Shown piece by piece: positions 28,092 to 33,952 of a DNA stretch of 33,952 nucleotides. The stretch comes from Bryobacterales bacterium (GTDB lineage: Bacteria > Acidobacteriota > Terriglobia > Bryobacterales > Bryobacteraceae): the NCBI GenBank assembly GCA_003136215.1, contig PLDO01000477.1, positions 1 to 33,952 on the forward strand, in the 5' to 3' direction. The translations under genes were made by a program, and so were the position numbers. The notes under the pieces were generated by a model, which was given only the letters and a program-made list of their open reading frames with translations, ran no database searches and was not told where the DNA came from. How positions within the stretch are numbered: position 1 is the first letter of the stretch; the number at the start of each line of letters is the position of its first letter.

Positions 28092-28109
28092 GCAGGCGAA
28101 ACCGCCTGC
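28092..28109. repeat. 18-base palindrome, copy 1 of 3
   Basis: GCAGGCGAAACCGCCTGC, a hairpin with a 7-base stem. The identical sequence is at 33376-33393 and its reverse complement at 33535-33552. It stands 6 bases upstream of the glycosyltransferase start codon. Confidence 0.9.
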
Positions 28110-28144
28110 GCCACCAACAACAAGTTTCTTGCCTGCAATGGTGG

Positions 28145-28180
28145 GGCAGGCTTCAGCCTGCCAACGCCCGCCTGCGGGCG
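28145..28180. repeat. two further hairpins in the glycosyltransferase/kinase gap
   Basis: GGCAGGCTTCAGCCTGCC (28145-28162) and CGCCCGCCTGCGGGCG (28165-28180) are exact stem-loops. Together with the 18-base palindrome they fill most of the 177-base divergent gap between 28086 and 28264. Confidence 0.75.
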
Positions 28181-33375: not shown

Positions 33376-33393
33376 GCAGGCGAAACCGCCTGC
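33376..33393. repeat. 18-base palindrome, copy 2 of 3
   Basis: Exact copy of 28092-28109. It marks the left end of the tandem-repeat cluster. Confidence 0.9.
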
Positions 33394-33540
33394 CCCACCA
33401 CTGCAAACACGGGTTGTGCACCTTGGTGGCGCAGACGCCTGCCCCACCCACTGCAAAGACACGGGTTGTGCACCTTGGTGGCGCAGGCGCCTGCCCCACC
33501 CACTGCAAAGACACGGGTTGTGCTCCTTGGTGGCGCAGGC
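33388..33540. repeat. tandem repeat, three units of about 52 bases
   Basis: Units begin at 33388, 33437 and 33489 with GCCTGCCCCACC and contain CTGCAAA, ACACGGGTTGTGC and CCTTGGTGGCGCAG. The first unit is 49 bases (short by three in two places), the others 52; the last differs by one base (GTGCTCC for GTGCACC). The unit is not coding in a meaningful way. The array is closed on both sides by the 18-base palindrome in opposite orientation. Confidence 0.9.
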
Positions 33541-33552
33541 GGTTTCGCCTGC
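33535..33552. repeat. 18-base palindrome, copy 3 of 3 (inverted)
   Basis: GCAGGCGGTTTCGCCTGC, the exact reverse complement of copies 1 and 2. It closes the tandem array 18 bases before the stop codon of the next minus-strand gene. Confidence 0.9.
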
Positions 33553-33569: not shown

Positions 33570-33952
33570 TCAGCGAACTCGTACCAGCAGATTCAGCGCG
33601 GCCTCCAGTTCCGGCTGCCGTTTGACCACGGGGCCGTTGAAGAACACTGCCGGCGGCAGGGCGTCTTTCCATTCGACTCCCGGCGGATAGAGCGCGGCCA
33701 GATCCCACAGGATGTTGTCGTGCAGGCAGCACGCCTGCTTGGGTTGGGGATCGCGCGCGTCGGCGGCCAGGCGCTGGGCCAGCAGATGCCGCGGGTCCCA
33801 ATACTGGCGGGCGCGGGCGTCCTTGAGGCGGGCCAGCACGCCGGCGCTTGGGCTCTGCCAATCGGTGGCAAGCATCGGCTCCCAGACGGCGAAGACCTGA
33901 ATCCGCGCTGCCGGATCTTGCTCTAGAATCTGTTGCACCGCGGAAGACCCCC
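33570..33952 (-). CDS. C-terminal part of a protein of unknown function, possibly thioredoxin-like (5' end cut)
   Basis: About 126 residues are visible and the frame stays open to the window edge, so the true start is outside. Readable segments are VQQILEQDPAARIQVFAVWE, EPMLATDWQSPSAGVLARL, DARARQYWDPRHLLAQRLA, ACCLHDNILWDLAALYPPG, and a C-terminal VFFNGPVVKRQPELEAALNL. The order of a VFAVWEPML strand, then ARQYWDP and a closing FFNGPVV strand, recalls the thioredoxin-like proteins of Acidobacteria in which a CxxC lies upstream; that part is not in the window. An internal GTG at 33938 should not be taken as the start. Confidence 0.55.
   Translation of the reverse strand, partial: GSSAVQQILEQDPAARIQVFAVWEPMLATDWQSPSAGVLARLKDARARQYWDPRHLLAQRLAADARDPQPKQACCLHDNILWDLAALYPPGVEWKDALPPAVFFNGPVVKRQPELEAALNLLVRVR

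Follow-up and report, generated by a model that had tools for sequence, protein, structure and literature searches.

Structure of the Array

The repeat at positions 33376-33552 of the window (the whole stretch of DNA analysed, 33,952 nucleotides from a Bryobacterales bacterium) raises the question of what kind of element it is and how it came to be tandem. A sequence-only reading had described three 52-base units framed by an inverted 18-base palindrome, likened them to REP/BIME repeats that may have grown by slippage on the hairpin, and pointed to a genome-wide count of palindrome and unit and to a REP-associated tyrosine transposase gene as informative. The array, a known kind of bacterial repeat, consists of a short hairpin-ended element copied head to tail three times between two genes; the element has hundreds of related copies in its genome and was probably spread by the genome's own REP-type transposases. 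We consider it very probable that the element is BIME/REPIN-like, that is, an inverted GTGG-tagged REP dimer tandemly duplicated to three units, whose dispersal by RAYT would have been followed by template switching and slippage.

Tandem repeat analysis (TRF) places the repeat at 33387-33541, where a 52-bp unit is present in 3.0 copies that match at 95%. Setting the unit boundaries at GCCTGCCCCACC (starts 33388, 33437 and 33489) confirms three units, but with lengths of 49, 52, and 52 bp rather than 52 bp throughout, unit 1 being 3 bases shorter than unit 2 and carrying one substitution relative to it (Table 1). The palindrome GCAGGCGAAACCGCCTGC lies, as first described, exactly at both array ends in opposite orientation (33376-33393, + strand; 33535-33552, - strand) and again at 28092-28109 (+ strand); at up to three mismatches, four matches were found against 0.07 expected from shuffled sequences. 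The terminal copies both form complete hairpins whose loop is 4 nt long, and both internal unit junctions are loopless palindromes between GTGG and CCAC. As DNA, the array folds better than all 200 of 200 shuffles (z -5.8).

Because the locus is close to the contig end (33552 of 33952), an unrelated minisatellite or an assembly artefact might be suspected. This is hardly credible, since single-copy dimers from across the genome match the array ends exactly, and substitutions and indels set the units apart from one another.

Table 1. Coordinates of the array, its neighbors in the window, and other REP tandem arrays of the genome.
Feature	Position	Strand	Remarks
Whole array	33376..33552		Three REP-dimer units in tandem, enclosed by two terminal REP hairpins
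Left terminal REP	33376..33398	-	- strand reads GTGG-G-GCAGGCGGTTTCGCCTGC; tag points into array
Unit 1	33388..33436		49 bp; ends in GCAGAC
Internal junction 1	33426..33447		Loopless two-sided hairpin GTGGCGCAGACGCCTGCCCCAC; one mismatch to search pattern
Unit 2	33437..33488		52 bp
Internal junction 2	33478..33499		Loopless two-sided hairpin GTGGCGCAGGCGCCTGCCCCAC; exact to search pattern
Unit 3	33489..33540		52 bp; one base apart from unit 2
Right terminal REP	33530..33552	+	GTGG-C-GCAGGCGGTTTCGCCTGC; tag points into array
Separate single-copy REP dimer	28092..28161		Tags inside; second hairpin GCAGGCTTCAGCCTGC
Flanking gene, 715 aa	31190..33337	-	Weak HEAT-repeat match; start codon 38 bp from array
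Flanking gene, incomplete	33570..33952	-	Cut off by contig end; stop codon 17 bp from array
REP tandem array, contig C267	L064 2873-3180		5.3 x 58 bp
REP tandem array, contig C532	L088 1925-2071		4.9 x 30 bp
REP tandem array, contig C3	L107 15244-15340		3.9 x 25 bp
REP tandem array, contig C102			2 x 69 bp

The REP Family and Its Single-Copy Dimers

In the genome (G000; 7.1 Mb in 729 contigs) there are 221 copies of the stem GCAGGCGNNNNCGCCTGC, well over the copy number of 100 that marks REPs, and 0 matches to the reversed-pattern control; tagged hairpins number 226. Among 59 stems in the 0.99 Mb read directly, 54 carry GTGG or GTAG at exactly one foot and none at both. This sample comprised 100 contigs, some of them picked for carrying REPs or transposases, and so informs on the tag and not on density. 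A one-sided tetranucleotide tag is a hallmark of REPs (PMC6006769; PMC8266576), and palindromes tagged GTAG/GTGG at one foot only are the usual form among the stems read, the internal joints of the array being two-sided exceptions to the rule. Published definitions of REP, BIME, and RAYT (PMC2817692; PMC6006769; PMC8266576) fit the element, and at this locus the array sits between the two likely genes. The REP/BIME-like reading is well supported by the 221 stems, the one-sided tag, and the REP-flanked Y1_Tnp genes described below.

A REP dimer whose GTGG tags lie on the inner side forms the basic unit. Such inward-facing dimer cores number 51 in the genome (control 0), so that two inverted REPs with a spacer form the repeated unit, as in BIMEs and REPINs. 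A single-copy dimer on contig C211, GCAGGCGAAACCGCCTGCCCCACCACTGCAAACACACGGCCTGCCTTGGTGGCGCAGGCGGTTTCGCCTGC, has ends identical to both array ends and a spacer that matches the array's in part; therefore, the array represents one such dimer multiplied internally. Other single dimers are 81-91% identical to that of C211. Compared with these dimers, the array unit has a slightly longer spacer and loopless joints, which counts against the BIME/REPIN-like reading. Elsewhere in the genome the single-copy parent form recurs, but the exact loopless 52-bp unit does not.

RAYT-Like Transposase Genes

Nine Y1_Tnp genes were identified in the genome, and at least four are flanked by inverted GTGG/GTAG hairpins (contigs C293, C717, C645, and C473), which provides candidates for the transposase that the sequence-only reading had pointed to. 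On C293 and C717, hairpins of the GTGGGGCAGGC type (GTGGGGCAGGCG..CGCCTGCC) stand on either side of the gene; they are the array's own GTGG-GCAGGC REP, so that a cognate RAYT-like gene lies between inverted copies of it. The RAYT-like genes on C645 (L071 1157-1801) and C473 (L072 4223-4832) are accompanied by GTAGGACAGGCC-type and GTGGGGCAGGTTG-type REPs, respectively; several RAYT/REP pairs coexist in one genome.

The RAYT-like proteins of C293 and C717 carry the motifs MPNHVH and Y(I/V)E.NPVSAGL. Against the NCBIfam model REP_Tyr_transpos (NF047646), the four hairpin-flanked genes score 75.2-79.7 bits, which is slightly short of the curated cut-off (80 bits) and far above their IS200 model scores, and the C645 protein matches the TnpArep structure (PDB 4er8) with an E value of 5.9e-7. 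No RAYT gene is present on the array's own contig, and a RAYT contig could be mis-binned because the assembly is fragmented (729 contigs) with an estimated contamination of 5.5%. Across 37 genomes of the family, the counts of REPs (tagged hairpins) and of Y1_Tnp genes correlate with a Spearman rho of 0.58 (p 1.4e-4), and inside the genus with 0.90, both values being uncorrected for kinship. All nine of the nine family genomes that lack Y1_Tnp have 0 REPs of this type.

Loopless Junctions and Growth of the Array

Where two units meet inside the array, at either joint, the right REP of the first unit and the left REP of the second are fused into the loopless palindrome GTGGCGCAG(A/G)CGCCTGCCCCAC. 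Two abutted whole REPs would be expected to form a near-perfect palindrome of approximately 48 bases, whereas approximately 24 central bases are absent here. The loopless two-sided form GTGGCGCAGRCGCCTGCCCCAC has no other site in the genome at up to two mismatches. Two-sided hairpins that have kept their loop are found on C299 (alone) and on C702 (inside another REP cluster). The latter is a mixed REP cluster (L208 8370-8545) in which one hairpin is tagged on both sides with its loop retained, and may show the step that precedes loop loss. A scan of GTDB genomes for the loopless junction returned one other record only, a Desulfobacterales contig, in which the same loopless palindrome, GTGGGGCAGGCGCCTGCCCCAC, occurs singly and without an array (L084 943-964).

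In the same read of approximately 1 Mb, tandem arrays of REPs are also present on C267, C532, C102, C61, and C3; tandem REP growth is therefore a habit of this genome, as it is in other bacteria with REPs according to published work (PMC3116915; PMC3733652). The C267 array differs from that of the window in that the tagged REP of every unit is whole.

The dimer could have been multiplied by RAYT-driven rolling-circle amplification, a mechanism that Nunvar et al. (PMC2817692) put forward for BIMEs, and the genome does contain RAYT-like genes and several REP arrays. However, RAYTs cut mainly beside hairpins (PMC8266576), so that units made in this way should be joined by whole REPs, as in C267, and in the present array the palindrome itself contains both joints, from which the central bases are missing; we regard rolling-circle amplification as rather unlikely. 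Because of this cutting preference, template switching or palindrome deletion accounts better for a joint at such a position, and the loopless form suggests palindrome-mediated slippage rather than RAYT cutting. The earlier proposal that slippage on the hairpin gave rise to the array is plausible, given that the duplication joints fall within the palindrome.

The dimer from which the array is proposed to derive consists of two inverted REP hairpins, tags inward (tail-to-tail), enclosing a short spacer; a RAYT working in trans on hairpins of single-stranded DNA would have dispersed it. Template switching across a REP hairpin during replication may then have produced a duplication whose joint lacks the loop and inner arms, and a further copy of the resulting 52-bp unit could have come from ordinary slippage or from unequal exchange. 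It is conceivable, albeit highly improbable, that loopless two-sided hairpins constitute a distinct functional state, in which GTGG on both strands of one hairpin might turn it into a symmetric target for RAYT or into a dead end that holds the array in place.

Flanking Genes and Local Setting

The array occupies most of the gap between two - strand genes (Table 1). In a protein search, homologues of the flanking gene were found in 4 of 40 relatives, with identities of at most 57%. No REP of the array type occurs near the homologues in genomes G005 (57%) and G021 (55%), and both homologues are so diverged that neither can stand in for an empty site. Weak miRNA and CRISPR matches around the array were far under thresholds and were dismissed as hairpin noise.

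The array might instead act chiefly in cis as RNA, with a - strand transcript folding upstream of the 715-aa gene into a long hairpin that tunes termination, mRNA stability, or translation. Its position 38 bp upstream of the start codon and the fold of the intergenic strand as RNA (z -6.5) would be in line with such a role, but inverted repeats must fold, as DNA and as RNA, and this fold is expected of any REP array. Moreover, no promoter or terminator, or site resembling either, was found in the intergenic gap, no Rfam family reached the gathering score in the window, and the same dimer adjoins many unrelated sequences, which together make a chiefly cis-acting RNA improbable. An effect of the BIME/REPIN-like array on the neighbor genes through mRNA folding or attenuation is possible but unproven, and would be secondary.

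Comparison With Known REP Systems

Alternating inverted REPs and spacers, in tandem and intergenic, are common to the array and the BIMEs of Escherichia coli, especially BIME-2. BIME-2, however, consists of several tandem dimer units with two whole REPs each, whereas in the three units here neighbors share one collapsed loopless hairpin, the internal REPs having merged. The tag also differs (GTAG in E. coli, GTGG here), as does the stem sequence. BIME-2 is further characterized by binding of gyrase and by unit numbers that differ between strains. Similar to the REPINs of Pseudomonas fluorescens SBW25, the element is an inverted REP doublet with a spacer that is dispersed, RAYT-associated, and sometimes clustered in tandem (PMC3116915). 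The GTGG variant of the GTAG superfamily (for example, GTAG-20 of O. terrae; PMC3733652) likewise combines a 6-9 bp stem, tagged by a tetranucleotide at one foot, with dimers, clusters, and a high copy number; the stem here is GCAGGCG, in a comparison that covered part of the published REP families.

These results add a further bacterial family to those with a documented REP/RAYT system, and a single genome here combines dimers tagged inward and outward with several kinds of array. The array joints record how a tandem BIME can begin inside a palindrome, which bears on the question of whether RAYT activity or replication slippage makes such arrays grow.

Head-to-head dimers, with the tags outside, are reported to predominate across GTAG families (PMC3733652), in contrast to the array unit with its tags inside. 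The genome has both, and the outward-tagged type is found, for example, on C668 (L211 8136-8206). On C668, C295, C506, and C710 there are dimers almost identical to one another that carry GTGG on the outside and share the conserved spacer AACTCTTGATCTGGCC; they match the REP that flanks the C717 RAYT and are possibly the most recently active type.
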